Source: Candidatus Galloscillospira stercoripullorum (GTDB lineage: Bacteria; Bacillota; Clostridia; Oscillospirales; Oscillospiraceae). Taken from it: a DNA stretch of 38,184 nucleotides. Numbering within the stretch: the first letter of the stretch is position 1; each line of letters starts with the position of its first letter. Location of the stretch: positions 1-38,184 of the forward strand of contig DVLB01000048.1 of NCBI GenBank assembly GCA_018715695.1, given 5' to 3'. Positions 4,018-35,443 of the stretch are shown here, piece after piece. The notes under the pieces are model-generated. The model was not told the origin of the DNA and made no database searches. It saw nothing but the letters and a program-made list of their open reading frames with translations. Both the position numbers and the translations under genes were made by a program.

Positions 4018-4042
4018 CGCTGAGGGCCGGAGCGGATATAAT
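4014..4042 (+). promoter_or_regulatory. Near-consensus promoter of galE
   Basis: TTGACG at 4014-4019 and a perfect TATAAT at 4037-4042 are separated by 17 bases. The -35 box contains the stop codon of the upstream gene. Confidence 0.85.
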
Positions 4043-4106
4043 AGGCTTGTCCCAACCATTTTCCGGCGGCAGCGACGCCGGAGGCATATGACTGGAGGTC
4101 AACTGT

Positions 4107-5093
4107 ATGTCGATTCTTGTCACCGGCGGCGCCGGTTATATCGGATCTCACTGTGTGGCCGCCCTGCTGGAGCGGGGCGAGGACGTGGTGGTAGCGGACA
4201 ATCTGGTCACCGGCCACAAGGAAGCCCTGAAGGGCGGGCGTTTCTACGAGGGCGATGTGTCCAACCGCGCCTTTCTGGACCAGCTCTTTGAGCGGGAGCA
4301 TATCGACGCGGTGATCCATTTCGCGGCCTTCTCCCTGGTGGGTGAGAGCGTGAACCTGCCGGAGAAGTACTTCCGCAACAATGTGGTCGGCGGCCTGACC
4401 CTGATGGAGTCCATGGTAGCCCACGAGGTACCCTACCTGGTCTTTTCCTCCACGGCGGCCACCTACGGGGAGCCGGAGTACACCCCCATTGACGAGGTCC
4501 ATCCCCAGAACCCCACCAATCCGTACGGCGAAAGCAAGCGCATCGTGGAGTCCATGCTCAAGTGGTCTGACCGGGCCCACGGCCTGCGTTTTGTGCCGCT
4601 GCGGTACTTCAACGTGGCGGGGGCCTGGCGGGACGGGAGCATCGGCGAGGACCACCGGCCCGAGACCCATCTCATCCCCATGATCCTCAAGGCGGCCCAG
4701 GGAAAGGTGCCCTCTCTCAAGCTTTTCGGCACCGACTATCCCACCCGGGACGGCACCTGCATCCGGGACTATATCCATGTGGAGGACCTGATCGACGCCC
4801 ATTTCCTGGCTCTGGACTATCTGCGCGCGGGCAATCCGTCCACGGCCTTCAACCTTGGCAACGGCCAGGGCTTTTCCAACCGGGAGATCATTGAGGCGGC
4901 CCGCCGCGTGACGGGCGCGGAGATCCCCGTGGAGGAGGCTCCCCGCCGCGCCGGTGACCCGGCCACCCTGGTGGCCTCCAGCCGCAAAGCCAAGGAGGTC
5001 CTGGGCTGGGAGCCCAAGCATCCCGATGTGGAGGATGTCATCGCCTCCGCCTGGCGGTGGCACAGCGCCCATCCCAACGGCTATGGAGCGTGA
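4107..5093 (+). CDS. galE: UDP-glucose 4-epimerase
   Basis: This 328-residue protein starts at ATG behind TGGAGGTCAACTGT. It is a complete extended short-chain dehydrogenase. The NAD-binding TGGAGYIGSH lies at residues 6-15, the active-site serine region LVFSSTAATYG is near 111-121, and the catalytic Y140-x3-K144 is in NPYGESK. The C-terminal AGDPATLVASSRKAKEVLGW is typical of GalE. It interconverts UDP-glucose and UDP-galactose for galactose use and for surface sugars. It has its own promoter. A 15-codon phosphatase-like remnant follows eight bases after the stop. Confidence 0.95.
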   Translation: MSILVTGGAGYIGSHCVAALLERGEDVVVADNLVTGHKEALKGGRFYEGDVSNRAFLDQLFEREHIDAVIHFAAFSLVGESVNLPEKYFRNNVVGGLTLMESMVAHEVPYLVFSSTAATYGEPEYTPIDEVHPQNPTNPYGESKRIVESMLKWSDRAHGLRFVPLRYFNVAGAWRDGSIGEDHRPETHLIPMILKAAQGKVPSLKLFGTDYPTRDGTCIRDYIHVEDLIDAHFLALDYLRAGNPSTAFNLGNGQGFSNREIIEAARRVTGAEIPVEEAPRRAGDPATLVASSRKAKEVLGWEPKHPDVEDVIASAWRWHSAHPNGYGA

Positions 5094-5100
5094 AGGCGGT

Positions 5101-5148
5101 ATGAAGCGGCGCCTGTTCGTCTGCCACGGCAGGATCGACCGGATATGA
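5101..5148 (+). pseudogene. Possible 5' remnant of a low-molecular-weight phosphatase gene
   Basis: A 15-codon frame encodes MKRRLFVCHGRIDRI and is preceded by AAGGCGGT seven bases after the galE stop. Its FVCHG-I-R pattern matches the start of the intact phosphatase at 6377 (MAKILFVCHGNICRS), and about 22 of 29 bases agree in the core. The frame stops before the second half of the active-site loop. I read it as the leftover start of an older galE-linked phosphatase gene interrupted by the AT-rich insert; chance similarity is possible. Confidence 0.4.
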
Positions 5149-5174
5149 AAAAATGCTTGTAAATCAAGCTTTTT
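5148..5174 (+). terminator. Possible terminator after galE
   Basis: A-rich sequence, GCTTG, a TAAAT loop, CAAGC and TTTTT make a short hairpin with A/T flanks. The stem is only five strong pairs. Confidence 0.45.
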
Positions 5175-5294
5175 CTGTGTTTCGGCCTCGGTTTCAGCAA
5201 CGATTTACCAACATTTTTGGAGAATCACACTTGCCCACAAAGCAAGAATCATGCAGCCGCGATATTAAATACTTCGCCATGAGCACCATTTCTC

Positions 5295-5999
5295 TCAGAC
5301 GGTCATTGTCCAGACGGTCTCGCCCGTTTCTGTATCTTTTATTCGCACGGTTGCGCTGCGCAGGCCATGCGGTATATTGTCGCATGTACTCAAATCGATC
5401 TGGTAGGCAAAATGATCCCAGTCTCGAAAACAGCTTAGTCTGGCTGCATCGTTTTCCGCCAGTGAAATGCAATCTGCAATATATGTGCTGTTCTCAAGGA
5501 TATGCGGATAAGATGCGACAAGCATGACCATTTTTAGGGAGCAGCTCCAGCTCTCCCTCCACCATTCATCATCAATCTTACAGCCGTCACATAGTTCCAT
5601 ATCGACGAAGATGTGCTCGACGAGGATCTCTGCGGAATGGCAGTCCAACCCATGCTCAAGAAGGACATGAAGTATTTTCAGGCCACCTTCGGTATTGACA
5701 AACGCCAAGTCCCATAACGGGTTGATGTTGTTTTCGTCATCATCCGGAATGTTTCTGGCTGTGATATCCATCCCGTATGCAAAAAACAGGCGAAGCAACT
5801 CCGGCATCGCATCAGCCATTTTTTCGTCATCTGCCGAAGAATAGAATAGCTCGCTCAGGATGTATGCATGCTGCTCATTTGCATCTGGACTACCCAACGG
5901 GTCTGCTCCCCGCCTGAGCAACTCTTCAACCTTGATTAGGTCACACCCTTTTGCCGCTTCCAGCAATTCTTTGTTTAAGACGAACTGTGCTGTATCCAT
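5295..5999 (-). CDS. Ankyrin-repeat-like protein
   Basis: This 234-residue protein starts at ATG 5999 behind AAAGGTGCGCT. It contains ankyrin-like units: KELLEAAKGCDLIKVEELLRRGADP (about residues 9-33), a middle region ending LLRLFFAYGMDITARN, then NPLWDLAFVNTEGGLKILHVLLEHGLD. The C-terminal half is acidic and not obviously repetitive. There is no signal peptide or membrane segment, so it is probably a cytoplasmic protein-binding protein. Stand-alone proteins of this type in Firmicutes are often accessory or immunity-like; nothing here proves that. It is the only clear gene in an AT-rich insert (about 5150-6370) between galE and the phosphatase, which suggests horizontal acquisition. Confidence 0.7.
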   Translation of the reverse strand: MDTAQFVLNKELLEAAKGCDLIKVEELLRRGADPLGSPDANEQHAYILSELFYSSADDEKMADAMPELLRLFFAYGMDITARNIPDDDENNINPLWDLAFVNTEGGLKILHVLLEHGLDCHSAEILVEHIFVDMELCDGCKIDDEWWRESWSCSLKMVMLVASYPHILENSTYIADCISLAENDAARLSCFRDWDHFAYQIDLSTCDNIPHGLRSATVRIKDTETGETVWTMTV

Positions 6000-6020
6000 A
6001 GCGCACCTTTACCTTTCTTT

Positions 6021-6045
6021 GTGAAACGGATGAAAACCGTTTCAC
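6021..6045 (-). promoter_or_regulatory. Inverted repeat in the ankyrin gene leader
   Basis: GTGAAACGG, a seven-base spacer and CCGTTTCAC form a perfect 9-base inverted repeat 22 to 46 bases upstream of the start codon. It could be an operator or an RNA hairpin. A weak -10-like TACGAT (6055-6050) lies just upstream of it on the minus strand. Confidence 0.45.
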
Positions 6046-6376
6046 TTATATCGTATTTTTATGGTTGCTATCTATGGATAACATTGTGCTACTGCTTTAG
6101 AAATAATGCAAGTGCTTATGAGAAGAGCAAAAACAGAAAGGGGCACCCGTTATTTCCTGATAGCTAAAGAAGTGTCCGCGTGTGGCGAACGCTGAAAGCT
6201 GTCCGTTGGTAAAGCGGATTTCTTTCCCAGCATTGCAAAACATAGAAGATCCCGAGAAGATTCGAGAAGGCATCTCCAAAACAAGCGAAAGCTCAGGCTA
6301 CATGAAAAGTACGAAAAACCCTGTAATATCAAGCGTTTGAGAAGAAAGACAGGACTTGTGAGGAGTTATAAAAAAG
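6046..6376. other. AT-rich spacer without a clear gene
   Basis: This stretch separates the divergently transcribed ankyrin and phosphatase genes. One plus-strand frame is open from 6164 to 6340 with plausible codons (SCPLVKRISFPALQNIEDPE in the middle) but has no upstream start codon, so it may be the tail of a lost gene. I do not recognise it. GAGGAG before 6377 is the phosphatase ribosome site. I found no convincing promoter. Confidence 0.4.
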
Positions 6377-6841
6377 ATGGCCAAAATACTTTTTGTGTGC
6401 CACGGCAATATCTGCCGCAGCCCCATGGCGGAATTCGTCATGAAGGACCTGGTGTCCAAGGCGGGGCTGTCCGGTGAGTTTGAGATCGCTTCGGCGGCGG
6501 TAAGCAGCGAGGAGCTGGGCAATCCGGTCTATCCTCCCGCGGCCCGGGAGCTCTCCCGCCACGGAATCCACTGCGCAGGCAAGCGGGCCCGACGGCTGAC
6601 CCGGGAAGACTATGACCTTTACGACCTGCTCATCGCCATGGACCACTCCAATCTCAGCGGAATGGCGCGTATCTGCGGGGGTGACCCGGAGGGGAAATTC
6701 TCCCTGCTGCTCTCCCACGCCGGCCGTCCCGACGAGGAGGTGGCTGATCCCTGGTATACGGGAAATTTTGAGGCCACCTGGAGCGATGTGCTCTCCGGCT
6801 GCGAAGGTCTCCTGGCTCACCTGACAGGCAAGGTCTCCTGA
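6377..6841 (+). CDS. Low-molecular-weight protein-tyrosine-phosphatase family protein
   Basis: This 154-residue protein starts at ATG behind GAGGAG. The P-loop V-C-H-G-N-I-C-R-S at residues 7-15 gives the C-x5-R-S active site (C8, R14), and the general-acid loop appears as EVADPWYTGNFEATW near the C terminus. The length is normal for the family. It should remove phosphate from phosphotyrosine or, in the arsenate-reductase branch, reduce arsenate; the DPWY loop favours a phosphatase. GC content returns to the genomic level here, unlike the preceding insert. A strong bidirectional terminator follows. Confidence 0.9.
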   Translation: MAKILFVCHGNICRSPMAEFVMKDLVSKAGLSGEFEIASAAVSSEELGNPVYPPAARELSRHGIHCAGKRARRLTREDYDLYDLLIAMDHSNLSGMARICGGDPEGKFSLLLSHAGRPDEEVADPWYTGNFEATWSDVLSGCEGLLAHLTGKVS

Positions 6842-6856
6842 CTGTCCTTTCCAAAC

Positions 6857-6891
6857 AAAAAGCTCCGGCCACCACGGTGGCCGGAGCTTTT
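6857..6891 (+). terminator. Bidirectional terminator
   Basis: AAAAGCTCCGGCCACC, a two-base AC loop and GGTGGCCGGAGCTTTT form a perfect stem with A and T runs. It serves the convergent phosphatase and MFS genes. Confidence 0.95.
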
Positions 6892-6932
6892 CTGCGTCTT
6901 TCATCTTCAGCAGCGTTTTAGAAGTTACCCGG

Positions 6933-8360
6933 TCATGCCCGAACCTTCGCCGTCTGGCGTCTTGGCATGAGGAGAAGCGTGGCGGCCATAATACCCACGC
7001 CGGCCACGGCACTTACCACGGCCACGCCGGAGAAGGCCTGGGCGATGGCCACCGCCTCTCCCGCGCCGCCGGGGGCGGTGGCGGCGAGATAGCGGGCGTT
7101 ATAGAGGATGCTGTACGCGGAGGTAAAGATCACGTTGCCCATGGAGTTTGCAAATTGCAGCACAGCGGTGGCACTGCCCAGGTCCTCGCTGGCTACGGCA
7201 GCGTGCATATAGGGCTGAATGATCACACTCTGGCAGCTGGTACCCACGCCGAAGATGACCATGACGGCGTAGATGGTGAGAACGCTGGTCTGCGTATCCC
7301 AGAAGCAGCACAGAAGGCTTGCCAGTGCGATGCAGCCGCCGCACAGGAGGAAAATGGGTTTGAAGCGCCGCCTGTCTTTGGCGATCCACGCCCCCAGGAA
7401 GGTGGGCAGGACAAAGAAAATAATGTTCTTGGGCAAGGCCAGGGTACCGCTCACGGTGGCGGAGAGTCCCAGGCCCACTTGCCCGTACATGGTGAGAGTG
7501 CTGGAGCACAGGCACACCATAGGTCCGATGAGCAGATAGGTGGCCGCGGAGAGGAGGAAGCTCTTGTTGCGGAAGAAGCGGGGGTCGAAGATGGGATCGG
7601 CCGCTCTGCCCTCATGGCGCACCAGCAGGAAGAGCAGCGCCGCGCCCACCACCAGCAGGGTGATCCCCAACGGAGAGATACGCGGGAAGGCCACGCCGCC
7701 GAAATTGCACCAGGTCAGGATGGCAGCCAGGCCCAGGGCCAGCAGCACCATGCCTGCGCGGTCCAGTCCGCCGCCGCTGCCCGTGGTCTTGTTGGGGTAG
7801 CAGGTCGCCAGGCAGACGAGGGAGAGGGCCCCGAAGGGGGCGAAGAAGAGGAAGGCGGCAAAGGGCCCCAGGAAGTCCACAATGACGCCGCCCCCCAGCA
7901 GCCCGGCCAGAAGGGCCACGCCGTTGACGGTGCCGAACACGCCGAACCACTTGGGGCGCTCCCGCAGGTCGGTGACGTCGCCCAGGATGGCGTAGGGGAT
8001 GGAATTGAGGAGCCCGCCGGCCAGGTTTCCGGTGAGGTAAAGGGCAAAGAACACCCCTCCGCTGGTGGGCACGGCGCAGCAGAGCATGAGCCCCAGGCGC
8101 ACGGCCGAGGCGGCAATGGCCAGGCGGCGGCGGCCGAAGCGGTCGCCCAGCTTGCCGCCCAGGGGCGTGACCACGCAGGAGATGAGGGAGTTTAGGCCGT
8201 TTAAGAGGGCGTAGTGCTCCATGACCCCATAGCGCTCCAGCAAGGACGGGAGCACCACAGGCATGGTGAAGGCGAAAAGGAGATTGTAGAAGAACATGGC
8301 CCCCGCGCCCAGGATGACCACGCCCTTGGCCCTGTTCCCCAGGGAGATGTAAGGGGTCAT
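6933..8360 (-). CDS. MFS transporter (multidrug or organic-acid type)
   Basis: This 475-residue protein is a major facilitator with about 14 hydrophobic segments, as in the DHA2 branch. The loop after segment 2 reads GGKLGDRFGRRRLAIA, the classic MFS signature. The ATG overlaps the stop of the CoA-transferase gene by four bases (ATGA), so the two are co-transcribed and translationally coupled. Given that partner, it may import a substrate or export a product of the acid-degradation pathway rather than act as a drug pump. The cargo cannot be read from the sequence. It is the last gene of the minus-strand transcript. Confidence 0.85.
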   Translation of the reverse strand: MTPYISLGNRAKGVVILGAGAMFFYNLLFAFTMPVVLPSLLERYGVMEHYALLNGLNSLISCVVTPLGGKLGDRFGRRRLAIAASAVRLGLMLCCAVPTSGGVFFALYLTGNLAGGLLNSIPYAILGDVTDLRERPKWFGVFGTVNGVALLAGLLGGGVIVDFLGPFAAFLFFAPFGALSLVCLATCYPNKTTGSGGGLDRAGMVLLALGLAAILTWCNFGGVAFPRISPLGITLLVVGAALLFLLVRHEGRAADPIFDPRFFRNKSFLLSAATYLLIGPMVCLCSSTLTMYGQVGLGLSATVSGTLALPKNIIFFVLPTFLGAWIAKDRRRFKPIFLLCGGCIALASLLCCFWDTQTSVLTIYAVMVIFGVGTSCQSVIIQPYMHAAVASEDLGSATAVLQFANSMGNVIFTSAYSILYNARYLAATAPGGAGEAVAIAQAFSGVAVVSAVAGVGIMAATLLLMPRRQTAKVRA

Positions 8361-9940
8361 GGCTTCATGGCCTTCTGGATGGGTTTGAAGCAGATCTCAG
8401 GCATGTTGCGCACCCTGGGGTGGACGCGGACCGGGAAGGGCAGCTGGGCCTGGACGAAGAAGTAGGGGTGCAGGCCGGGGGCCACCTCGGTGATGAGCAG
8501 TCCCTCGTCCTCCAGTTCAAAGACCGCCCGCTCGGTGACATAGAGGATGCGCTTGCCCAGGGAGCGGAAGTAGGGGGCGTTGAGGGAGATGCGCTCCACC
8601 TCCTCCACGAATTTGCTGCCCTTGCCCTCCAAGACGGAGATACGGCCGTTTTCCACGGCGTAGCCGGAACCCTGGCGGAACTTGGAGCAGACCACGATCT
8701 TCTTCGCCCCCTGGGTGACGTGGTTGAAGCCGCCCACGCCCATGAGGAGCTGCCCCTTGGCCGAGACGTTGACGTTGCCCTTCCGGTCGATCTCCAAAGC
8801 GCCCACAAAGCTGGCGTCCAGGCCGCCGCCCTCGTAGAGGTCGAACTGGGCGGCCATGTCGTAGATAGCGTCGGCATTGATGACGGCGCCGAAGGCGTCG
8901 GGCACGGGTACGCCGCCCATGACGCCGGTCTCGATGGAGACGTGGTGCCGGGGGGTGAGGATGCCCATGTCCCTGGCCTCAGAGGCGGCCAGCATGGGGG
9001 TGCCGATGCCCAGGTTGATGAGGTAGGAATCCTTGAGCTCCAGGGCGGCCCGCCGGGCGATGACCCGCTCGGCCAGGGTGAGGGGCTTGCCCGGAGCGCG
9101 GTCCCGGGTGAGGTTGTCCCGGCACATTTTTTCCACCATCTCCTCGGGAGCGCGGCACTCGCCGGAGAGATAGGGGTCGTAGCCGGGGCGGTTGCTCTGC
9201 CACTGATCGGGGGAGAGCCAGATGCAGTCCACCAGGGCACCGGGCACCCGCACGTCCTTGGGGTCGGCCGGGACTGCAGAGAGGCGCTCCACCTGGACCA
9301 TGACGAGGCCGCCGTTGTTGTGGACGGCCATGGCCAGGGAGAGGGAGTCGGAGACGTTGACTTCCTTTTCAAAGGTAATGTTGCCGCCCGGGTCGGCAGT
9401 GGTGCCCCGGAGGACGCACACATCGGGGTAAACGGTGCGGTAGAAGAGGTACTCCTCCCCGTCCACCTCCCGCAGCTCCACCAGCTTTTCCCTTGAGCGG
9501 TCATTGAGGGCACAGCCCTGCTGCCGGGGATCTGCCGAGGTGTGCAGTCCCACCTTGGACAAGAAGCCGGGCCGGCGGGCGGCGGCGGCACGGTAGTTGG
9601 TGGAGATGATGCCCTGGGGCAGGTTGTAGCCCTCCATCTCCCCGCTGAGGATGGCGGGGGCGAAGACGGCGTAAGGGGCGATATAGCCCACGATGGCCCT
9701 GGAGACCATGCCCGGGTGAGCCAGACGGGTGATGTAGGCGTTCTCGCCGCTTCCGCCCAGGCCGCAGGCGGAGTAGAGGGTGAGGTTTCTGGGGTGTCCC
9801 TCGCTGAGGAAGCGCGCCTCGGCCGCCAGGAAGAACTGCTCGGCCAGGCCGATCATGCCGATGCCGTTGAAGGAGACGATGGCGCCGTCCCGGATGCGGG
9901 CCACGGCCTCCTGTGGGGTAGTAAGCTGTCTGGGCTGCAT
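8357..9940 (-). CDS. Fused family I acyl-CoA:acetate/3-ketoacid CoA-transferase
   Basis: This 527-residue protein joins the alpha and beta halves of a family I CoA-transferase in one chain, like YdiF and propionate CoA-transferase. The alpha half starts TPQEAVARIRDGAIVSFNG. The beta half begins near residue 290 (LAERVIARRAALEL), carries the INLGIGTP strand and then SIETGVMGGVP, in which E337 is the expected catalytic glutamate that forms the enzyme-CoA thioester. The ATG follows CGGAGG. It moves CoA between short acyl-CoAs and acids. Here its natural job would be activating acetoacetate released by the BKACE encoded on the divergent transcript, or making butyrate or acetate. Confidence 0.9.
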   Translation of the reverse strand: MQPRQLTTPQEAVARIRDGAIVSFNGIGMIGLAEQFFLAAEARFLSEGHPRNLTLYSACGLGGSGENAYITRLAHPGMVSRAIVGYIAPYAVFAPAILSGEMEGYNLPQGIISTNYRAAAARRPGFLSKVGLHTSADPRQQGCALNDRSREKLVELREVDGEEYLFYRTVYPDVCVLRGTTADPGGNITFEKEVNVSDSLSLAMAVHNNGGLVMVQVERLSAVPADPKDVRVPGALVDCIWLSPDQWQSNRPGYDPYLSGECRAPEEMVEKMCRDNLTRDRAPGKPLTLAERVIARRAALELKDSYLINLGIGTPMLAASEARDMGILTPRHHVSIETGVMGGVPVPDAFGAVINADAIYDMAAQFDLYEGGGLDASFVGALEIDRKGNVNVSAKGQLLMGVGGFNHVTQGAKKIVVCSKFRQGSGYAVENGRISVLEGKGSKFVEEVERISLNAPYFRSLGKRILYVTERAVFELEDEGLLITEVAPGLHPYFFVQAQLPFPVRVHPRVRNMPEICFKPIQKAMKP

Positions 9941-9979
9941 GGATAGGACCTCCGTTCACACATTATATTGTCTGAAATT

Positions 9980-10008
9980 AAGCTATCCGATTTCACGGCC
10001 GTTGTCAA
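9980..10008 (-). promoter_or_regulatory. Candidate promoter for the CoA-transferase/MFS transcript
   Basis: On the minus strand TTGACA (10008-10003), 17 bases, then TAGCTT (9985-9980). An alternative -10 box TATAAT lies closer to the gene (9967-9962) but has only a poor -35 match. The two divergent transcripts share this 206-base AT-rich region. Confidence 0.45.
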
Positions 10009-10038
10009 TAGTTTTTTCTAATATTTTGTTTTTACGTC

Positions 10039-10067
10039 TTGCAAAGCACATTTCTATGTGATAATAT
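10039..10067 (+). promoter_or_regulatory. Candidate promoter for the cyclase-MBL-BKACE-MATE operon
   Basis: TTGCAA at 10039-10044 and TAATAT at 10062-10067 are separated by 17 bases, leaving a leader of about 70 bases. Confidence 0.5.
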
Positions 10068-10146
10068 GGTCCTAAATTAATATGCAACCGCGTTCCTTTT
10101 TCTCAAATTCACTTTTCTGTAATTCATCAACAAAGGAGTGGAACCC

Positions 10147-10917
10147 GTGAAACTGATCGATCTCAGTTCTCTTTTGCGCAACAACGCCCCCAACGATCCC
10201 CCCGCCCAGCGGCCCACCATCGTCTACTCCGACCATGTGGCCGGCCGGGACAACATGCTCTCCTTCTACCCCTCCGCCACGGCGGCCGACCTGCCCGACG
10301 GTCTGGGCTGGGCCTTTGAAGGGGTGTTCCTGGGCACTCACAGCGGCACCCATCTGGACGCACCCTGGCACTATCACCCCACCATGAACGGCGGGGAGCG
10401 GGCCTGGACCATTGACGAGATCCCGCTGGAGTGGTGCTTCTCCCGCGGGGTGAAGCTGGACTTCTCCGACAAGGGGGACGGCTACCGGATCATGGCCGCC
10501 GATGTGGAGGCCAAGCTCCAGGAGATCGGCCATACCCTGCAGCCGCTGGACATCGTGCTGATCCAGTCTGGGGCAGCGCCCTTTGCAAACAGCGAGGAGT
10601 ACATGGTCAAGGGCTGCGGTATGAGCCGGGAGGCCACCAACTACCTCACCGAGCGGGGGGTGCGCATCACAGGCACCGACGCCTGGAGCTGGGACCGTCC
10701 CCTGCCCCTGGTGACCGAGGAGTTTGCCCGCACCCATGACAAGAACATTATCTGGGAAGGGCATTTTGCCGGCATCGACCGGGGCTATTGCCATATGGAG
10801 AAGGTGACCAACCTGGACCTGCTGCCCGCCACGGGCTTCAAGGTGGCCTGCTTCCCCATCAAGATCGAGGGGGCCAGCGCCGGCTGGGTCCGGCCGGTGG
10901 CCATTCTGGAGGACTGA
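10147..10917 (+). CDS. Cyclase-family (kynurenine formamidase-like) metal-dependent hydrolase
   Basis: This 256-residue protein belongs to the PF04199 family. I chose GTG 10147 because AAGGAG sits eight bases before it; an in-frame GTG at 10138 overlaps that ribosome site. The metal-binding signature H-S-G-T-H-L-D-A-P at residues 65-73, followed by W-H-Y-H, is the family hallmark (HxGTHxD). Members hydrolyse amides, cyclic imides, lactones or N-formyl groups, for example formylkynurenine and isatin. No other tryptophan-catabolic gene is nearby. As first gene of an operon with an MBL-fold hydrolase and a BKACE, it probably opens a ring or removes an acyl group to release the acid that enters the pathway. 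The substrate is unknown. Confidence 0.85.
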   Translation: MKLIDLSSLLRNNAPNDPPAQRPTIVYSDHVAGRDNMLSFYPSATAADLPDGLGWAFEGVFLGTHSGTHLDAPWHYHPTMNGGERAWTIDEIPLEWCFSRGVKLDFSDKGDGYRIMAADVEAKLQEIGHTLQPLDIVLIQSGAAPFANSEEYMVKGCGMSREATNYLTERGVRITGTDAWSWDRPLPLVTEEFARTHDKNIIWEGHFAGIDRGYCHMEKVTNLDLLPATGFKVACFPIKIEGASAGWVRPVAILED

Positions 10918-10921
10918 GAGC

Positions 10922-11839
10922 GTGGACTGGAGCAAAGCGCCCACGCTGGAGCACGTGAAGGGGGATACCTACTGTATCGTCACCGCTTTTTCCCGCATTC
11001 CGCTTTTCAAACTGGACGCGCATAACGCCGTGCTGATGGACTCCGGCCTTGCCCTGGACCGGGCCGGGATCTGCCGGGTGCTGGAGCGAGAGGGTCTGCG
11101 AGTACGTGCCATCCTCACCAGCCACATCCATATCGACCACGCGGGCAACCACCGCTATTTTCAGAAGGCCCATGGGGCGCGGCTGTATCTGAGCCTGTAT
11201 GACGCCGCCCTGGGCTCCAACCCGCTGGCCATGCACACCTATCTCTACGGAGACAGCTATCAGCACACCAATGCCTACGCCCACAGCCTTTTCTGCCGGG
11301 CCGATGAGCTCTTGTGGCGGGACAAAGACTTTGTGGAGGTGGAGGGGGCCCGGTTCCAGATCGTGCCGCTGGACGGCCACGCGCCGGAGCATCTGGGCTT
11401 CATCACGCCGGACAACGTGGGCTATGTGGCCGACGCTCTCATGAGCGACGACGTGCTGCGTTCGGTGCGTATCCCCTACTGCAACTGCTGCCAGGTTGAC
11501 CTGGAGAGCAAGCGCCGGGCGGGCGAGCTGCCCTGCGACCGGTTTATCCTGGCCCATAACGCCGTGGAGGACGATCTGCGGGAGCTGACCGAGCGCAACA
11601 TCAATTCCCTGCTGGAGCGCATCGAAATGGTGGCGGACCTGGCCGACCACTACATGACCATGGGCGAGCTGATCTGGGCCAGCGGTAAGGCGCTGGGCGC
11701 CCGGATGCAGACTACCGAGAAGATCATGGTGGCCGAGCAGAACCTGCGTTCCTACATCGAGTTTCTGGTGGACCGGGACGTGCTCATCAACCGCGCCAAC
11801 GACGGTCGGGTGGAGTATATCCGCGCGGACCTGGCCTGA
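10922..11839 (+). CDS. Metallo-beta-lactamase-fold hydrolase, lactonase-like
   Basis: This 305-residue protein starts at GTG four bases after the cyclase gene, behind GGAGG. The metal site S-H-I-H-I-D-H-A-G places H68, H70, D72 and H73 in the HxHxDH motif, and a later D-G-H-A-P-E-H supplies a further ligand. The C-terminal 80 residues (from about NINSLLERI) are helical and may form a cap or winged-helix-like tail, as in several MBL hydrolases. The family includes quorum-type lactonases and thioester hydrolases. In this operon the plausible jobs are opening a lactone or hydrolysing an acyl-CoA made by the next enzyme. Known aerobic carnitine pathways use a thioesterase at the latter step, but of a different fold. 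Confidence 0.8.
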   Translation: MDWSKAPTLEHVKGDTYCIVTAFSRIPLFKLDAHNAVLMDSGLALDRAGICRVLEREGLRVRAILTSHIHIDHAGNHRYFQKAHGARLYLSLYDAALGSNPLAMHTYLYGDSYQHTNAYAHSLFCRADELLWRDKDFVEVEGARFQIVPLDGHAPEHLGFITPDNVGYVADALMSDDVLRSVRIPYCNCCQVDLESKRRAGELPCDRFILAHNAVEDDLRELTERNINSLLERIEMVADLADHYMTMGELIWASGKALGARMQTTEKIMVAEQNLRSYIEFLVDRDVLINRANDGRVEYIRADLA

Positions 11840-11880
11840 GACAAGAGAGAATTAAAAAAATATAAAAGAGGAGGATCATC

Positions 11881-12747
11881 ATGAACAAGCTCATCATCGC
11901 CGCCGCCCTCGCCGGGGCCGGCACCAGCAAGGAGGCCAACCCCAGCGTGCCCTACCATGCCGACGAGATCGCCGAGCAGGTGGTGGCCTGCGCCAAGGCG
12001 GGGGCGGCCGCGGTGCATATCCACGTCCGGGAGGACAGCGGCTGGCCCACCATGGATACGGACAAGTTCACCGCCGCCTTTGAAGCCATCAAGAAGGCCA
12101 CCGAGGCTGCCGGCGTGGACGTGGTGGTGAATCTTACCACCTCCGGCGCTTCCGGCATCGTGCCCAACGAGCTGCGCCTTGCCCACCTGAAGAAGCTGCG
12201 CCCCGAGATGTGCTCCTTTGACGCGGGCACCATGAACTGGAACAACGGCGGCGTATTCGTCAACGCCCCCGATTTCCTGGAGCAGCTCTCTGCCACCGTG
12301 GTGGCCGAGGACATCAAGCCGGAGATCGAGATCTTCGATAACGGCATGATCGGAAATTCCCTCTATTACATCAACAAGTACCACATCCCCACCCCCTGCC
12401 ACTTCCAGTTCGTCCTGGGCGTGGGCGGCGGCGCCGACGGCACGGTGCGCAACCTCAACTTCCTGCGGGAGATGCTGCCCGAGGGGTCCACCTGGTCGGT
12501 GACAGGCATTGGCAAGACCCACCTGCCCATGCTGCTCACCGCCCTGGCCATGGGCGCCGACGGGGTCCGGGTGGGTCTGGAGGACAATCTCTATCTTTCC
12601 CGGGGCGTGAAGGCCACCAACGTGCAGCTGGTAGAGCGGGCGGCGGCCATCGCCAAGCTCTGCGGCCGCGAGATCGCCACCGCCGAGGAGGCCCGGGCCA
12701 TCTGGGGTATCAAGCGCCATGCCCTGGCCGAGTACACCCCCGCCTGA
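11881..12747 (+). CDS. Beta-keto acid cleavage enzyme (BKACE, DUF849; Kce-like)
   Basis: This 288-residue protein starts at ATG behind AGAGGAGGATCATC. It is a full-length DUF849 TIM barrel. The zinc ligands H46 and H48 lie in V-H-I-H-V-R-E, and the catalytic cluster appears as R230, E234 and D235 in G-V-R-V-G-L-E-D-N. The family converts a beta-keto acid plus acetyl-CoA into acetoacetate and a shortened acyl-CoA. Known substrates include 3-keto-5-aminohexanoate (lysine fermentation) and dehydrocarnitine. Residue 14, a glutamate in the lysine-pathway enzyme as I recall it, is glycine here (AGAGTSKE), so a different substrate is likely. No other lysine-fermentation gene lies in the window. The carnitine-dehydrogenase-like gene at 21501 would make a suitable keto acid. 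Confidence 0.9.
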   Translation: MNKLIIAAALAGAGTSKEANPSVPYHADEIAEQVVACAKAGAAAVHIHVREDSGWPTMDTDKFTAAFEAIKKATEAAGVDVVVNLTTSGASGIVPNELRLAHLKKLRPEMCSFDAGTMNWNNGGVFVNAPDFLEQLSATVVAEDIKPEIEIFDNGMIGNSLYYINKYHIPTPCHFQFVLGVGGGADGTVRNLNFLREMLPEGSTWSVTGIGKTHLPMLLTALAMGADGVRVGLEDNLYLSRGVKATNVQLVERAAAIAKLCGREIATAEEARAIWGIKRHALAEYTPA

Positions 12748-12772: not shown

Positions 12773-14170
12773 ATGGCTGAGACCCTGACCCAACCGGGCG
12801 GGGGTCTGGACATGACCCAGGGCCGCCCCATCTCCCTGATCTTCCGTTTTTCCCTGCCCCTTCTGCTGGGCAACCTGCTCCAGCAGGTCTATAACATGGT
12901 GGACTCGTCGGTGGCCGGCATTTTTGTGGGCAAAGCGGCGCTGTCCGCCGTGTCGGCGGGGTATCCCATCGTGTTCATGCTCACCTCGGCCTTCTCCGGG
13001 GTGAGCATCGGTGGCACCATCCTCATCGCCCAGTATTTCGGGCGGCGCAGCTACGAGGACGTGGACCGCACCGTCCGGGCGGTCTACTTCGGCATCACAG
13101 TGGTATGCGTGCCTCTGATGGTGCTGGGCATTCTGGGGGCAAAGCCGCTGCTGGAGCTGTTTCTCACCCCGCAGGATGTACTGCCCCACGCCACCACCTA
13201 TGTCCAGGTCATTTTCGCCGGGCTCATCGGCGGCATGATCTACAACGTCAACGCCGGCATCCTCCAGGGCCTGGGGGACAGCAAAAGCTCCCTGCGCTTT
13301 CTGTCCATCTCCTGCGCGGTGAACGTGGTGCTGGACCTTTTGTTCGTGGCGGTGGTGGGCTGGGGAGTCTTTGGAGCCGCCTTTGCCACCATCCTGGCCC
13401 AGGGCCTCTCGGCCTGGCTGGGGGTACGGCACATCAACCGGCGCTATCCCTTCATCCATATCCGGCTCTTCTCCCGGCAGGTGGACATGGCCCTGGTGAA
13501 AAAGTCCCTGTATCTGGGCATCCCCTCCTCCATCTCCAACCTGCAGTACAGCATTGGCATGCTGGTCATCCAGTCCATTATCAACAGCTGTGGCACCGAT
13601 TTTATGGCTGGTGCAGGGGCGGCGGCCAAGATCGACTCCTTCGCCTTCATGCCCATTCTCAGCTTCTCCACCGCCATCACCACCTATGTGGGACACAACA
13701 TGGGGGCGGGGCGGCTGGACCGGGTGCGGCAGGGAGTCCACGCCACCCTTGCGCTCTCCTGCGGCACCTGCGCACTGATGGCCCTGATCTTCGTGCCGCT
13801 GGGCCGGTTCATCATGAGCCTGTTTTTCGGACTGGGAGAGGACCCGGCGGCGCTGGATGCGGGCATGGCTTACCTGCTGCGCATCATGATCCCCACGCCA
13901 GCCCTGGCGGTGCTCTATGTGCTCAACGCCACCCTCCGGGGGGCAGGCGCGGCCATTCTGCCCACGGTATCCGGCATCGTGGCTCTGTGGGTGGTCCGGG
14001 TGCCTGCGGCCTATCTGCTGATGGACGCCTTCGGGCCGGAAAATATGTTTTTCTCCTTTGTCATCGGCTGGACGGTGGGCCTCATCATCACCGGCACGGC
14101 CTATCTGCGGGGCAAATGGACCCGCAAGTCTCTTTTTGACCCGCCTCCTCTCGGGGAGGAACTCCTTTGA
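12773..14170 (+). CDS. MATE-family efflux transporter
   Basis: This 465-residue protein starts at ATG 12773, eight bases after AAGGAGG. The longer frame from 12719 overlaps the BKACE gene and lacks a ribosome site. Twelve hydrophobic segments in two similar halves and the signatures LLLGNLLQQVYNMVDSSVAG and ILQGLGDSKSSLRF mark the multidrug and toxin extrusion (DinF/NorM-like) family. It should exchange cations for an organic compound. As last gene of the cyclase-MBL-BKACE operon it probably exports a by-product of that pathway, such as an amine or betaine-like molecule; this is inferred from position only. A very strong hairpin terminator follows. Confidence 0.85.
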   Translation: MAETLTQPGGGLDMTQGRPISLIFRFSLPLLLGNLLQQVYNMVDSSVAGIFVGKAALSAVSAGYPIVFMLTSAFSGVSIGGTILIAQYFGRRSYEDVDRTVRAVYFGITVVCVPLMVLGILGAKPLLELFLTPQDVLPHATTYVQVIFAGLIGGMIYNVNAGILQGLGDSKSSLRFLSISCAVNVVLDLLFVAVVGWGVFGAAFATILAQGLSAWLGVRHINRRYPFIHIRLFSRQVDMALVKKSLYLGIPSSISNLQYSIGMLVIQSIINSCGTDFMAGAGAAAKIDSFAFMPILSFSTAITTYVGHNMGAGRLDRVRQGVHATLALSCGTCALMALIFVPLGRFIMSLFFGLGEDPAALDAGMAYLLRIMIPTPALAVLYVLNATLRGAGAAILPTVSGIVALWVVRVPAAYLLMDAFGPENMFFSFVIGWTVGLIITGTAYLRGKWTRKSLFDPPPLGEELL

Positions 14171-30693: not shown

Positions 30694-30724
30694 CGTTTGT
30701 CAAGAAAGGCTTGCCGGCAATCTC

Positions 30725-30758
30725 AACCCGCCGCGAATTTTCATTCGCGGCGGGTTTT
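30725..30758 (+). terminator. Terminator with its T run on the plus strand
   Basis: AACCCGCCGCGAA, a six-base loop and TTCGCGGCGGGTT are followed by TTCT. It stops plus-strand transcription just before the end of rnfA. Confidence 0.8.
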
Positions 30759-30762
30759 CTGC

Positions 30763-31344
30763 TCAGATCTGCAGCCCGGTGAATCCCAAAAAGGCCATGG
30801 CCAGCAATCCCACGGTCACCAGAGCGATGGGCACGCCCTCAAAGGCCCTGGGCCATTTCGAGAAGGCCAGCCGGCCTCGGACGCTCATAAGCAGCACCGC
30901 CGCCAGGGCGTAGCCCGCACCGCTGAAGACAGCCTGCACCCAGCACTCCTCCAGGCGCAGGTTCTCCTGCGCCGCCAGAAGGATGACGCCCAGCACCGCG
31001 GCATTGACGGCGCTCACCTTTATGTGTGCGTTCACCTTTTCGCCCAGGCGGGGAATGCGGGACGCCAGGGCGGACAGAACCAGCTCCAGCACCGCGCACA
31101 GGGCAATGAATACCACCAGGCGCAGGTACTCCAGACCCAAGGGCCGCAGCAGGAAGAAGTCCGCGCACCAGCATACCGGCGCGGCCACGGCCATGATGAC
31201 GGTGACCGTGATTCCGGCGATGGCGCACTGGGACAGAGAGCCCTTCTGCCGCACCAAAGCGCCGGCACCCAGTACTCGGCCCAGCAGCAGGTTTTCCGTC
31301 AGGGCGGCAGCCAGAGCAAGAGCGATGATCTCAAAAATGCTCAC
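30763..31344 (-). CDS. rnfA: RnfA-like membrane subunit without the iron-sulfur cysteines
   Basis: This 193-residue protein starts at GTG overlapping the rnfE stop by four bases (GTGA). Length, six membrane segments and the C-terminal ALVTVGLLAMAFLGFTGL match RnfA/RsxA. Canonical RnfA has F-L-G-L-C-P-F-M-G in the first segment and T-N-C-A-V-L-G in the fourth. Those cysteines, with two in RnfE, hold a [2Fe-2S] centre inside the membrane. Here the sites read V-L-G-A-G-A-L-V (residue 28 is glycine) and V-N-A-A-V-L-G (residue 115 is alanine). The protein should still fold and pair with RnfE but cannot supply the cluster ligands. It is the last gene of the operon, with no rnfB after it. Confidence 0.85.
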   Translation of the reverse strand: MSIFEIIALALAAALTENLLLGRVLGAGALVRQKGSLSQCAIAGITVTVIMAVAAPVCWCADFFLLRPLGLEYLRLVVFIALCAVLELVLSALASRIPRLGEKVNAHIKVSAVNAAVLGVILLAAQENLRLEECWVQAVFSGAGYALAAVLLMSVRGRLAFSKWPRAFEGVPIALVTVGLLAMAFLGFTGLQI

Positions 31345-32108
31345 GCGGTCTCACCCTCCTTTTTCCGGCCCAGGCGGGTGCGGAGATACTGGGCCAGAGC
31401 GGTGAGAAAGCCCAAAGTAAGAAAGCCGCCACAGGGCGCGGCGATGAGCAGAGCGGGATGGACGGCCCCGCCCAGCAGCTTCACGTCCCACAGGCTACCG
31501 GCGCCCAGCAGCTCCCGCACCGCGCCCAGCACCGCCAGTGCCAGGGCGTAGCCCATCCCCGCGCCTAAGGCATCGACCAGAGCGTAGCCGGGGTCCTGCC
31601 GGCTCTGGACGGAGGCCGAACGCACTAGGAGCAAACTGCTCACTGCGATGAGGGGCAGATAGACCCCCAGCTGCTCGGTCTCCACGGGGCACACCAGCGT
31701 GGCCAGCTGGACCGCCGCGGCGGTAAAGGCCGCAATGATGATGAGCTGCGCCATGTGCCGGAAGGCCTTGGGAAACACCTCCCGGGTCAGGGAGATCATG
31801 AGGGCCGAGCATAGCAGCACCGCCAGGGTGCACACCCCCATGAGCACCGCGCTTTTGAGCCGGCTGCCGGCGGCCAGAGCACAGCTGATACCCAAAGCCG
31901 CGGTCAGCAGGGGGTTGCGGGTGAGGAGTCCCTCTCCCAGCAGCCGTCCCGCGGTCTTTTTGTCCAGGGCGAATTTCTGTGCGGTCTTTCCCGCCAGCGT
32001 CCCGGCACCTTTGGCCAAAGCGGCTTGCGCGGAAGCCCTCAGGGTCTTGAGCCGCGCTCCAGCCTTGCCCCGGAACTCCAGCCAGCCCTTAGACGGTTCC
32101 TTCTTCAC
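31341..32108 (-). CDS. rnfE: RnfE-like membrane subunit with altered cysteine sites
   Basis: This 255-residue protein starts at GTG behind GGGAGGTG, overlapping rnfG by 20 bases. About 55 hydrophilic, basic residues precede the RnfE-like core (LLTRNPLLTAALG). The end of the core, GYALALAVLGAVRELLGAGSLW, is typical. The canonical L-G-L-C-P site reads L-G-I-S-C (S75, with C76 next to it). The canonical V-T-N-C site reads A-V-S-S (S158). Three of the four intramembrane cluster ligands expected across RnfA and RnfE are therefore lost outright, and the fourth is shifted by one residue. The length of the N-terminal tail is also unusual. Confidence 0.85.
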   Translation of the reverse strand: MKKEPSKGWLEFRGKAGARLKTLRASAQAALAKGAGTLAGKTAQKFALDKKTAGRLLGEGLLTRNPLLTAALGISCALAAGSRLKSAVLMGVCTLAVLLCSALMISLTREVFPKAFRHMAQLIIIAAFTAAAVQLATLVCPVETEQLGVYLPLIAVSSLLLVRSASVQSRQDPGYALVDALGAGMGYALALAVLGAVRELLGAGSLWDVKLLGGAVHPALLIAAPCGGFLTLGFLTALAQYLRTRLGRKKEGETA

Positions 32109-32685
32109 CGACCTGCACCTCCCCGCTCTGGATCTCGGTCACCACCGCCAAGGCAGCGTTGACACCTTCGGTCACCGAGCGGCTGGTGGTGGTAGCGCCG
32201 CTGATGGCCTCAATGGCGTTGGTGCCCCGTTCCACCCGGACGGTGCCGGATTTTCCGATAAATTGTCCCAAAAACTCCTGTTCTCCAGCAAGAGCGCCCA
32301 TCTCTCCGGTCTCCCGGTGGGAGAGGAGCATCACGCCGGTGACCGATCCGCCCGCGTCCACGCCTACCAGCAGCTGCATGGGTCCGCCGAAGCCCTGGGT
32401 GGTAACGGTGACGCAATAGCCCACCAGCTCCAGGTCGGAGAAGGCGGCCAGAACGCTGTCAGCCTTGCTGTGGTCGAACCAGGTTTCAGAAAAGGAGTCC
32501 GCTCCGGGCATGACGGTCTGGAGCTGGGCCAATTCCCGCTGCGTTCTTCCCTGCTGGATGGGCCCCGCGGTGAGGGCGTTGAGCACGGTCAGGGCCAGGA
32601 CCAGGACCACGCACAGCACCACCGCCGGCACTGCCCGCAGGAGAGCGGGGCCCAGAGGGAGCCGGGTTCTGGATCTACGCGCCAT
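32089..32685 (-). CDS. rnfG: RnfG-like FMN-binding subunit
   Basis: This 198-residue protein starts at ATG behind GGAGGAGAGCGGCC, overlapping rnfD by 11 bases. One N-terminal membrane anchor (AVVLCVVLVLALTVLNALTAG) is followed by an extracytoplasmic FMN-binding domain. The flavinylation motif I-S-G-A-T-T-T is intact near residues 161-167, with T165 the expected attachment site for FMN by ApbE. The usual E-T-P-G-L-G loop reads E-T-G-E-M-G. The intact motif suggests that the complex still moves electrons through its flavins. Confidence 0.9.
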   Translation of the reverse strand: MARRSRTRLPLGPALLRAVPAVVLCVVLVLALTVLNALTAGPIQQGRTQRELAQLQTVMPGADSFSETWFDHSKADSVLAAFSDLELVGYCVTVTTQGFGGPMQLLVGVDAGGSVTGVMLLSHRETGEMGALAGEQEFLGQFIGKSGTVRVERGTNAIEAISGATTTSRSVTEGVNAALAVVTEIQSGEVQVGEEGTV

Positions 32686-33943
32686 GGCCGCTCTCCTCCT
32701 TTCTCACACCGTCTCTTCGGAGCCGGCGCCGGTACATAAGCCCTACCCGGTCAAAAAGCCAGGCAGCGGCATTCATAAGCAGGATGGCGAAGGCCACCCC
32801 CTCGGGGTACGCGCCGAAGTAGCGCAAAAAGACCGTCAGGGCTCCGCACCCCACGCCGTAGAGGACCTGCCCCCAGCCGGTGGTGGGGGAGGTGACAGGG
32901 TCAGTGGCCATGAAGAAAGCGCCCAGCAGCAGCCCGCCCCCGGTGAGCTGATAATACATCCAGTAGAGCCGGTCGCCGCTGGTCTGAGGAAAGAGCCAGG
33001 TGAGCAGGGCCACCGTGCCAATCATGCACAGGGGGATGCGGGGCCGGATGACCCGCCGGACCACCAGATAAAGCCCGCCCAGCAGCACCAGGGCGGCGGA
33101 AACCTCCCCGATGGCACCGCCCCGGATGCCGGTGAGCATTTCCAGGGGCGTGGTGCCCGGCAGGTTTCCCTGATGGAGCGTGGCCATGGGGGTGGCCGCG
33201 GTCACCGCGTCCAAGGCGGAGAGCAGATCAGGACTGGTGCGTGTGGCGGCCCAGGTATTGATGAGGGCCGGGAAGGAGAAGAGGAACACCCGTCCCGCCA
33301 GGGCGGGGTTCATAAAGTTCTTGCCCAGGCCGCCGTAGAGCAGCTTGACCACCACGATGGCAAAAAGCCCGCCGATCGCCACCACCCAATAGGGGGTGGT
33401 CACCGACAGTGTCATGGCAAGCAGTACGCCGGTGACCACGGCGGAGAGGTCTCCCACCGTCTGCCGCTCCCGGCGCAGCGCCCGCCATGCCGCCTCAGCA
33501 CCCACACAGACGGCCACAGACACCGCCGTCACCAGAAAGGACCTGGGGCCGAAGAAGTAGATCCCGGAAAAAAGCAGCGCAGGCAGCAGGGCAATGAGCA
33601 CATCGGCCATCATGCCCCGGGTACTCTCCCGGCCAGTCAGATGGGGAGCGGCACCGGGAAGCTCCCCGCTCTCTCCCCGTCGTCTGTGCCTGGGGTGGAG
33701 CTTCTTGCGCTCAGGCCCGGTCTCCCGGGCCGTTTTCTTCTCCTCAGGGGAGCTGTCTTTTCCCTCCTGCTCCCGGTCCGCTTCGCCGGGACCGCCGTGC
33801 TCCTCGGGAGCGGTCTGCGTCTCGGAGGTGCTTTCCTCTTCCGGGTGGGCGTGGGCCCCGGCGGTGGTCTCCTCCGCTGAAACAACGTTCCCTTCTTTTG
33901 CCTTCTCAGCCTCTCCCTTTGTATCCCGAAGGTCCTCGCTCAC
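32675..33943 (-). CDS. rnfD: RnfD-like membrane subunit with a long acidic N-terminal extension
   Basis: This 422-residue protein starts at GTG 33943, which overlaps the rnfC stop by four bases (GTGA) and follows AGGAGG; the ATG at 33964 is a poorer choice. The RnfD core begins at P-H-L-T-G-R-E-S-T-R near residue 100, a place normally found within the first ten residues or so. Before it lies a hydrophilic stretch rich in Glu, Lys, Ser and Thr. The core has the conserved KLLYGGLGKNFMNPALAGRVFL, the covalent-FMN motif D-A-V-T-A-A-T-P, and FFMATDPVTSPTT. It should carry FMN in the membrane and form part of the ion path. The extension could be a docking or regulatory tail. Confidence 0.9.
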   Translation of the reverse strand: MSEDLRDTKGEAEKAKEGNVVSAEETTAGAHAHPEEESTSETQTAPEEHGGPGEADREQEGKDSSPEEKKTARETGPERKKLHPRHRRRGESGELPGAAPHLTGRESTRGMMADVLIALLPALLFSGIYFFGPRSFLVTAVSVAVCVGAEAAWRALRRERQTVGDLSAVVTGVLLAMTLSVTTPYWVVAIGGLFAIVVVKLLYGGLGKNFMNPALAGRVFLFSFPALINTWAATRTSPDLLSALDAVTAATPMATLHQGNLPGTTPLEMLTGIRGGAIGEVSAALVLLGGLYLVVRRVIRPRIPLCMIGTVALLTWLFPQTSGDRLYWMYYQLTGGGLLLGAFFMATDPVTSPTTGWGQVLYGVGCGALTVFLRYFGAYPEGVAFAILLMNAAAWLFDRVGLMYRRRLRRDGVRKEESGHGA

Positions 33944-35271
33944 GCTCTCCCCTCCTCTCTCCATTCACGCAGCGCCGCTTTCCCCCGGCGTATGCTCTCC
34001 AGCTGCCGGATGCGGGACGGGCAGACATAGGTACAGGCGCCGCACTCCAGGCACCGAGCGCCGTCCAGCTTCTCCAGCATTTCTGTCTTTCCCGCATCGG
34101 AGCAGGCCCCGAGCAAATAGGGCTCCAGCCCGGCGGGGCACACGTCCACGCAGCGCCCGCAGCGCACGCAGCTGCCGCTCTCCTCTCCGTCCCCGGCGCA
34201 CTCCCGTTCGCTCAGGGCCAGGACGGCCTCCTCCCCCTTGCCTATGGGCATGGTGAGGTCAGTAATTGCCTCCCCGGTCATGGCGCCGCCCAGGACCACT
34301 CGGGCCGGGCGCCCCTTCCGCCCGGCCTCCTGGAGCACATCGCCAATCCTGGCGCCCAGGGGCAGGGTGTAGTTGCCAGGCTTCCCCAGCGCGCCCCCGG
34401 CCACGGTGACCAGGCGGCTGGTGAGAGGCTTGCGGAGGTAGACCGCGTCGTAGACCGCCGCAGCGGTGGCGGCGGGAATGACCAGGCAGCCGACATCCAG
34501 GGTGGGACCGCCGGGGCTCATCCGGCGGTGCTTCACCCGCTGGGCCAGGGCCCACGGTTCTCCCTGGGGGTAACGCACCGGAGTCGTGATCACCCGGATG
34601 TCACCTCCCCGCAAGGGCAGGGCCTTCTGGAAGGCGGCGATGGCGTCGCCCTTGTCGCTGCCGATGGCCAGGGTGGCCTCCTTCAGGTCCAGCACCCGCA
34701 TGAGCAGCCGGATACCCCCCAGGATCTCCTCGGTGCGTTCCAGCAGCAGCCGGTGGGTGGAGGTCACATAAGGCTCGCACTCCACGGCGTTGAGGATGAG
34801 GGTATCCACCTTTCCCTCGGCCTCCCGCAGTCGGGCGTAGGTAGGCGCACAGGTGCGGTCCATGTCCACCACGCCGCACTCCCGCACGGCCTTGAGGATC
34901 TCCGCGGGAGAGAGCAGGTCCGGCCGGTCTTTCCGAGGAAGGGGCTCCTCCCGGTCCACAGGGGTGTTCTGCCCGTCGTTTTCCAGGATCACAGCCAATC
35001 CCCTGCCTCCCCGGAAGGGCCGCTCCTCAATGGAGAGCACCCGGCCGGAGACGCTGGCGTGCAGGGGGACGCCCTTGCCGGTGGGTTCGGCCAGCTTTTG
35101 TCCCAGTCTCACCCGGTCCCCCTCTTTCACCAGCACCCTGGGCACCGCACAGCACCATTCCAGGGGCAGTACCACCAGCGCGGGAGGATGGTCCAGCGCG
35201 ACGGGAGAGAGCCTGCGTGTATTTTTCTTCTGTGCCGCGGGGCGCACCCCGCCGCGGAACGCGCGGAACAT
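33940..35271 (-). CDS. rnfC: RnfC-like subunit lacking the FMN/NADH glycine-rich motif
   Basis: This 443-residue protein starts at ATG 35271 behind GGAGTGGAGCC; the longer frame runs through the promoter. The order of parts is RnfC-like: FRGGVRP at the N terminus, a barrel/biotinyl-like region (VKEGDRVRLGQKLAEP), the Rossmann-like VDTLILNAVECEPYVTS, and a C-terminal pair of 4Fe-4S motifs (C-V-R-C-G-R-C-x3-C-P and C-L-E-C-G-A-C-x3-C-P). Canonical RnfC has G-x-G-G-A-G-F-P-T just before the ECEPY block, the site of FMN and NADH. Here residues 133-144 read GVVDMDRTCAPT. NADH oxidation or reduction by this subunit is therefore doubtful, while iron-sulfur relay remains possible. Confidence 0.85.
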   Translation of the reverse strand: MFRAFRGGVRPAAQKKNTRRLSPVALDHPPALVVLPLEWCCAVPRVLVKEGDRVRLGQKLAEPTGKGVPLHASVSGRVLSIEERPFRGGRGLAVILENDGQNTPVDREEPLPRKDRPDLLSPAEILKAVRECGVVDMDRTCAPTYARLREAEGKVDTLILNAVECEPYVTSTHRLLLERTEEILGGIRLLMRVLDLKEATLAIGSDKGDAIAAFQKALPLRGGDIRVITTPVRYPQGEPWALAQRVKHRRMSPGGPTLDVGCLVIPAATAAAVYDAVYLRKPLTSRLVTVAGGALGKPGNYTLPLGARIGDVLQEAGRKGRPARVVLGGAMTGEAITDLTMPIGKGEEAVLALSERECAGDGEESGSCVRCGRCVDVCPAGLEPYLLGACSDAGKTEMLEKLDGARCLECGACTYVCPSRIRQLESIRRGKAALREWREEGRA

Positions 35272-35298
35272 GGCTCCACTCCTTTCATTTTTCGTTTC

Positions 35299-35327
35299 AG
35301 TATACCCCAATCTGTCAAAAAAGTCCA
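35299..35327 (-). promoter_or_regulatory. Candidate promoter of the Rnf-like operon
   Basis: On the minus strand TGGACT (35327-35322), a 17-base spacer and TATACT (35304-35299), 28 bases before the rnfC start. Confidence 0.55.
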
Positions 35328-35414
35328 GCGGCAGCGGGAAAAAGGCTTTTTTCAACTTTTTCCGTGTTCTTAGGGCATTTTGTAGAAATTCCGCCGGAAG
35401 AGAAAATAACGCGA

Positions 35415-35443
35415 TTGACAAATAGGCCCGGAGGCCTTACAAT
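35415..35443 (+). promoter_or_regulatory. Promoter of the T-box/ilvBN transcript
   Basis: A perfect TTGACA at 35415-35420 and TACAAT at 35438-35443 are separated by 17 bases. Transcription would begin near 35450, just before the T-box. Confidence 0.85.

Follow-up and report, generated by a model that had tools for sequence, protein, structure and literature searches.

The window, that is the whole analysed stretch of 38,184 nt (contig DVLB01000048.1 of assembly GCA_018715695.1, from Candidatus Galloscillospira stercoripullorum, genome label G000), carries at 30763-35421 on its reverse strand five genes homologous to subunits of the Rnf complex (Table 1). Their order, rnfC-rnfD-rnfG-rnfE-rnfA (rnfCDGEA), is that of the homologous genes in the canonical RnfCDGEAB systems of Acetobacterium woodii and Clostridium tetanomorphum. 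RnfC and RnfD score above their NCBIfam cut-offs, RnfA and RnfE reach about half of theirs and RnfG also stays below. The likely true start of rnfC lies around 35271, at Met51 of the ORF, and RnfD bears a charged N-terminal extension of about 100 aa. The genes rnfE and rnfA overlap by 4 nt with both frames open, in line with an earlier note on this DNA that had described them as intact and overlapping. No rnfB is present at the operon: no FeS-rich ORF adjoins it, and a strong hairpin stands straight after rnfA. In the window and its closest relatives, RnfE also has a conserved N-terminal extension of about 50 aa (MKKEPSKGW...), predicted to be cytosolic from the known RnfE topology, which may cover the former docking face of RnfB.

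Table 1. Positions of the rnf homologues in the window and of selected genes at other surveyed loci
Locus	Feature	Position	Strand	Evidence or context
Window	rnfC homologue	33940-35421	(-)	TIGR01945 355 bits, above cut-off; aligned to 7zc6_C and 9eri_C
Window	rnfD homologue	32675-33964	(-)	TIGR01946 292 bits, above cut-off; aligned to 9eri_D
Window	rnfG homologue, FMN_bind domain	32089-32685	(-)	PF04205; aligned to 7zc6_G and 9eri_G
Window	rnfE homologue, 255 aa	31341-32108	(-)	PF02508 and TIGR01948; alignments
Window	rnfA homologue, 193 aa	30763-31344	(-)	TIGR01943 112 bits, below cut-off of 229; alignments; AlphaFold
Window	Terminator-like hairpin, strong, directly 3' of rnfA	30726-30757	(-)	Fold of 30715-30775: -32.8 kcal/mol, z -6.2
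L176	733 aa protein, N-terminal hydrophobic segment, two FMN_bind and FAD_binding_2	2727-4928		Directly upstream of and overlapping rnfC
L104	814 aa protein, FMN_bind and FAD_binding_2, signal-like N-terminus	6130-8574		Divergent, adjoins rnfC
L104	RnfB-like ORF	12884-13999
L166	RnfB-like ORF	9211-10326
L167	RnfB-like ORF	4508-5716
L197	RnfD fused to three FMN_bind domains	5458-7506
L199	RnfD fused to four FMN_bind domains	5754-8195
L049	Reduced rnf operon	8796-11004
L051	Reduced rnf operon	714-4542
L052	Reduced rnf operon	8597-12320

In canonical Rnf, electrons follow a U-shaped path from ferredoxin to RnfB, the [2Fe-2S] cluster of the RnfA/RnfE pair (AE1), the FMN of RnfG, the FMN and riboflavin of RnfD, and the [4Fe-4S] clusters and FMN of RnfC, which deliver them to NAD+. 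Alignment to the RnfA/NqrE and RnfE/NqrD chains of 9eri, 7zc6, 8ahx and 7xk3 and to canonical relatives places Gly28 and Ala115 of the window RnfA, and Ser75 (adjacent to Cys76) and Ser158 of its RnfE, in the four cysteine columns of AE1, exactly as the earlier note had read them. The surroundings are still those of RnfA and RnfE, another of its claims, and the local motifs remain recognisable: LG(I/L)CPFL has become LGAGALV and TTNCAVLG has become AVNAAVLG in RnfA, with LGxCPxLA shifted to LGISCALA and VxNCIIL to AVSSLLL in RnfE. Since cysteine occupies all four places in the 77 of 77 surveyed canonical loci having RnfB, these substitutions are not ordinary variation. The AlphaFold model of the window RnfA (mean pLDDT 89) superposes on A. 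woodii RnfA (9eri_A) with Z 24 and an rmsd of 2.3 over 189 residues, so the scaffold is kept.

The loss is common to a clade (support 97/96) formed by the window and L043, L170, L171, L172, L044 and L174, L172 having been placed in a separate analysis. The ligand positions (RnfA; RnfE) read E/S; T/T in the congener L043, P/W; A/A in L170 and L172, P/G; C/C in L171 and T/S; C/S in L044, while L174 has G/C in RnfA and its RnfE was not found. Residues at the old positions thus vary within the clade (G/E/T/P and A/S/S/W/G in RnfA, S/T/C/A and S/T/S/A in RnfE), a pattern more consistent with drift following the loss than with a new set of ligands. It is very improbable, in our judgement, that the pair binds another cofactor or metal through non-cysteine ligands and still lets electrons cross there. 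A few clade features could be read in that sense, namely Cys76 beside the old RnfE site, Cys226 of RnfE, and Glu17 and Arg23 of RnfA; but no replacement set of Cys or His ligands is conserved across the clade in either protein, no other conserved cysteines fall at the ligand positions, and in the absence of RnfB no known partner would feed such a site. Cys226 occurs in five of six clade members and Cys76 is confined to the genus of the window; both were dismissed as substitute ligands, a single residue being unable to hold a cluster.

The other half of the operon is far better preserved. The window RnfC keeps both CxxCxxCxxxC [4Fe-4S] motifs with all 8 FeS cysteines, and its AlphaFold model (pLDDT 94; Z 49 against solved RnfC) retains the RnfC fold. 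Four A. woodii residues, T156, N123, D249 and T185, have been named as ligand residues (PMC11889175). The window RnfD keeps the FMN-Thr (VTAATP) and the riboflavin Asn and Asp (NFMNPA, FMATD), equivalent to T156, N123 and D249, and alignment of RnfG to the A. woodii chain shows the flavinylation motif SGAT with its FMN-Thr at the place of T185. Where a column shows 90% conservation or more in canonical Rnf, the share kept by the window is 92% in RnfD, 90% in RnfG, 72% in RnfC, 66% in RnfE and 46% in RnfA. As predicted from these motifs, the remaining sites are exactly one arm of the U-shaped path: the two [4Fe-4S] clusters of RnfC, the riboflavin and FMN of RnfD and the FMN of RnfG. In solved Rnf the riboflavin lies 11.7 Å from the RnfC-2 cluster and the FMN 7.7 Å from the riboflavin in RnfD (PMC9588780). 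With RnfB and AE1 lost and the C-D-G sites kept, the operon has the make-up of a single-limb system, with one electron limb only and an FMN_bind partner.

RnfC has itself changed at one place. Its glycine loop, which we take to be the FMN/NAD site in part by comparison with NuoF, reads DMDRTCAPT in the window instead of GxGGAxFPT and no longer matches the canonical pattern, which is kept in 72 of 72 scorable canonical loci. The assignment of this loop draws on the relationship between RnfC and NuoF (PMC9588780). Elsewhere in the genome G000 (1.88 Mb, completeness 74%), contig C38 bears a canonical rnfCDGEAB operon with four A/E cysteines and a normal RnfC loop, and most other genomes bearing a reduced copy also hold a canonical one. 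The only full RnfB of G000 belongs to the canonical copy; its sharing in trans with the reduced complex, along a path through A/E, is ruled out by the missing AE1. The earlier note had seen neither the absence of rnfB nor the loss of the RnfC loop, nor the additional canonical operon or the recurrence of the losses described below.

About 115 loci were surveyed, 80 of them collected by RnfD similarity, together with RnfA/E paralogs of low score from a sample of genomes across the family, the order and the phylum, and with loci gathered earlier; all were annotated by one pipeline and RnfB was scored by FeS count. Of the scorable loci, 31 had lost at least one A/E cysteine, and none of these 31 had an intact RnfB with its B8 domain; 80 had all four A/E cysteines, and 77 of them had such an RnfB (Fisher p 2e-24, a descriptive value, since the sampling was enriched for the low-scoring copies, that is for losers). 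The N-terminal domain of RnfB (B8) hands electrons to the A/E cluster in Rnf. At L104, L166 and L167, RnfB-like ORFs with three 4Fe-4S motifs and a broken N-terminal B8 cysteine motif adjoin an RnfA missing one AE1 cysteine. A tree of RnfC and RnfD from which the loop had been left out calls for six changes on branches that have support, hence at least six independent A/E losses, and a single origin of all of them was rejected (AU p 2.6e-6). Among six independent pairs, RnfB differs along with A/E in five and in the opposite sense in none (sign test p 0.06). The suspicion of the earlier note that electrons are carried otherwise, or not through the A/E pair at all, agrees with these results, the A/E loss accompanying that of the RnfB feeding the cluster while the sites of the other arm persist.

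The sister of the window's clade, L047 (96/89), lacks rnfB, and no RnfB over cut-off was found in its genome (99% complete); it keeps the four A/E cysteines, so RnfB was the first to be lost, and its RnfC loop has already changed (GGSARPT). All 24 A/E losers having RnfC keep its 8 FeS cysteines; the FMN loop is retained in 13 of these 24 and gone from the other 11, whereas it is missing from 0 of 72 canonical loci. One exception, L196 (G572), consists of RnfCDEA without B or G and has lost the RnfC loop with four A/E cysteines kept. A deeper reduced group (L049, L051, L052 and L183-L192) has rnf(C)DEA and neither G nor B; where RnfC is present it keeps its FeS cysteines, the RnfD FMN-Thr is changed in several members and rnfC is missing in some, L183-L189 being reduced to rnfDEA. 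Without RnfG, and partly without the RnfD FMN-Thr, this group indicates that not every A/E loser fits a one-arm reading. L049, L051 and L052 lie near a ribulose-phosphate 3-epimerase gene, and a membrane-anchored DUF4015 protein, a putative glycosyl hydrolase, is encoded next to L049, L051 and the unrelated L112.

The coexistence of reduced and canonical copies raises the question of decay: the canonical Rnf would do the work and its duplicate would slowly erode under relaxed selection, losing first RnfB, then A/E and RnfC. dN/dS values (Nei-Gojobori) between the window and L043 range from 0.34 for D to 0.65 for C, with 0.52 for A and 0.50 for E, above those that the canonical copies of these two genomes show (A 0.32, E 0.39), and A/E retains only 46-66% of its conserved columns. 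For A and E, more closely related pairs of other losers lie at 0.04-0.31, apart from RnfE of L170/L172 (0.53), and L183/L184/L185 give 0.04-0.14. Constraint is therefore present but relaxed in the A/E half. Decay nevertheless appears unlikely, considering that dN/dS is below 1 everywhere, that the frames are open in every member read, that the window's clade has lost none of the RnfC FeS cysteines or RnfD ligands, that several genera have the operon at the same place, divergent from ilvB (the window, L043, L044, L047, L170, L171 and L172), and that the loss recurred in at least six lineages. The operon is no pseudogene cluster in its relatives, and the view of the earlier note that the changes are not simple decay stands, with frames intact in several genera, dN/dS below 1, a confidently predicted RnfA fold and C, D and G cofactor sites kept.

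We consider it probable that the window operon encodes an additional complex, derived from Rnf, in which a single electron arm is left and works as a one-way transmembrane conduit through C, D and G. The entry limb (RnfB and the A/E cluster) and the FMN/NAD site of RnfC are gone, and the kept chain of sites, from the two [4Fe-4S] clusters of RnfC through the riboflavin and FMN of RnfD to the FMN of RnfG, is unbroken. A soluble cytosolic one-electron donor, perhaps ferredoxin, would reduce the RnfC clusters; electrons would cross the membrane via RnfD to RnfG and leave it for an extracytosolic acceptor, with RnfA and RnfE staying as a cofactor-free scaffold. Loss of the FMN loop in the window's clade makes NADH an unlikely donor there, and a ferredoxin-like one-electron carrier is our guess for it. 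A. woodii loses its Fd:NAD activity and can no longer grow autotrophically when the AE1 cysteines, the RnfG FMN or the ligands of the RnfD riboflavin are removed (PMC11889175); by analogy, the window complex should lack Fd:NAD oxidoreductase activity.

The best candidate partners of such a conduit lie outside the window's clade. The proteins next to rnfC at L176 and L104 are predicted secreted reductases and candidate electron acceptors, and an apbE gene lies upstream of rnfC at L053. Such partner-gene context in other losers supports a one-way outward wire; the best of it, however, comes from other clades, mostly with the RnfC FMN loop (as in L053 and L176), which counts against extending it to the window's clade. 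No reductase gene adjoins the operon in that clade, and G000, at 74% completeness, encodes one ApbE, no FMN_bind protein besides its two RnfGs and no FMN_bind/FAD reductase partner. The fused RnfD genes of L197 and L199 lie in operons without RnfB and without A/E cysteines, and RnfD-RnfG fusions also occur in L173, L174, L176, L180 and L181. Electrons could conversely enter from an outside donor through RnfG and run via D and C to a cytosolic acceptor, the chain being symmetric and Rnf reversible (PMC11889175). Such reverse flow is quite unlikely in our estimate, since the inside-negative potential favours outward electron flow and the partner genes encode secreted fumarate-reductase-like proteins. 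In characterised relatives, proteins of this kind act as acceptors.

For ion transport, both RnfA/E and RnfD have been put forward as the route (PMC11889175, PMC9588780). An ion channel or transporter with little or no redox function, built on RnfA/E or RnfD, would suit the relatives keeping rnfDEA only (L183-L189); we give it little credence, as it leaves unexplained why the window's clade keeps the 8 FeS cysteines, the riboflavin ligands and the FMN-Thr in both D and G. Just as improbable is a one-way electron-exporting ion pump, in which AE1-less complexes would export electrons and continue to transport ions, by way of RnfD or of an A/E pair without cofactor, making ion transport independent of the A/E cluster.

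With canonical Rnf the window complex shares the C, D and G cofactor sites and the RnfA and RnfC folds of solved chains, and it differs by the absence of RnfB, the A/E [2Fe-2S] ligands and the RnfC FMN/NAD loop, besides the low scores of A, E and G. NQR/RNF-like single-arm systems, in which an RnfD fused to an NqrF-type NAD domain is accompanied by an FMN_bind subunit, have been proposed to export electrons unidirectionally (PMC8238504, Meheust et al. 2021) and have been modelled (PMC10979944). The likeness lies in the single arm and the presumably one-way export via an RnfD-type protein to an FMN_bind protein. These systems consist of two subunits only, have no FMN-Thr in their RnfD and are found chiefly in Actinobacteria and the candidate phyla radiation, whereas the window keeps separate C, D, G, E and A, an input through the RnfC FeS clusters and the RnfD FMN-Thr; its RnfD matches PF03116 only, with no fused PF00175 NAD domain found. 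The present operons reach the NQR/RNF-like logic by another route, the loss of RnfB and AE1 from a full Rnf. As the RNF class was defined by RnfB in that survey (PMC8238504), RnfB-less clusters would have fallen outside that class. Nqr (NqrA-F) has the same core, and its NqrA, a relative of RnfC, is also without FMN (PMC9588780); NqrA nevertheless has no [4Fe-4S] cluster where the window RnfC has two, NqrD and NqrE keep their cysteines, and no NqrF is encoded in the window operon. In the open-access literature we found no report of a combined loss of RnfB and A/E cysteines or of RnfB-less or incomplete Rnf, which does not prove that none exists, and nothing relevant on second or divergent rnf operons.

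The coupled loss, having occurred at least six times, points to Rnf having been turned time and again into a wire that carries electrons one way through the membrane. In effect, nature has repeatedly deleted the same parts of a major respiratory pump, which favours the idea that the role of the A/E cluster is confined to the RnfB-to-RnfG step. The AE1-less complexes also offer a test of ion transport by RnfA/E versus RnfD, disputed in recent structural papers. For genome annotation, an 'Rnf' called by RnfC, RnfD or RnfA matches may be a complex unable to gain energy from ferredoxin. More generally, the finding suggests that gut Clostridia export electrons through complexes derived from Rnf.
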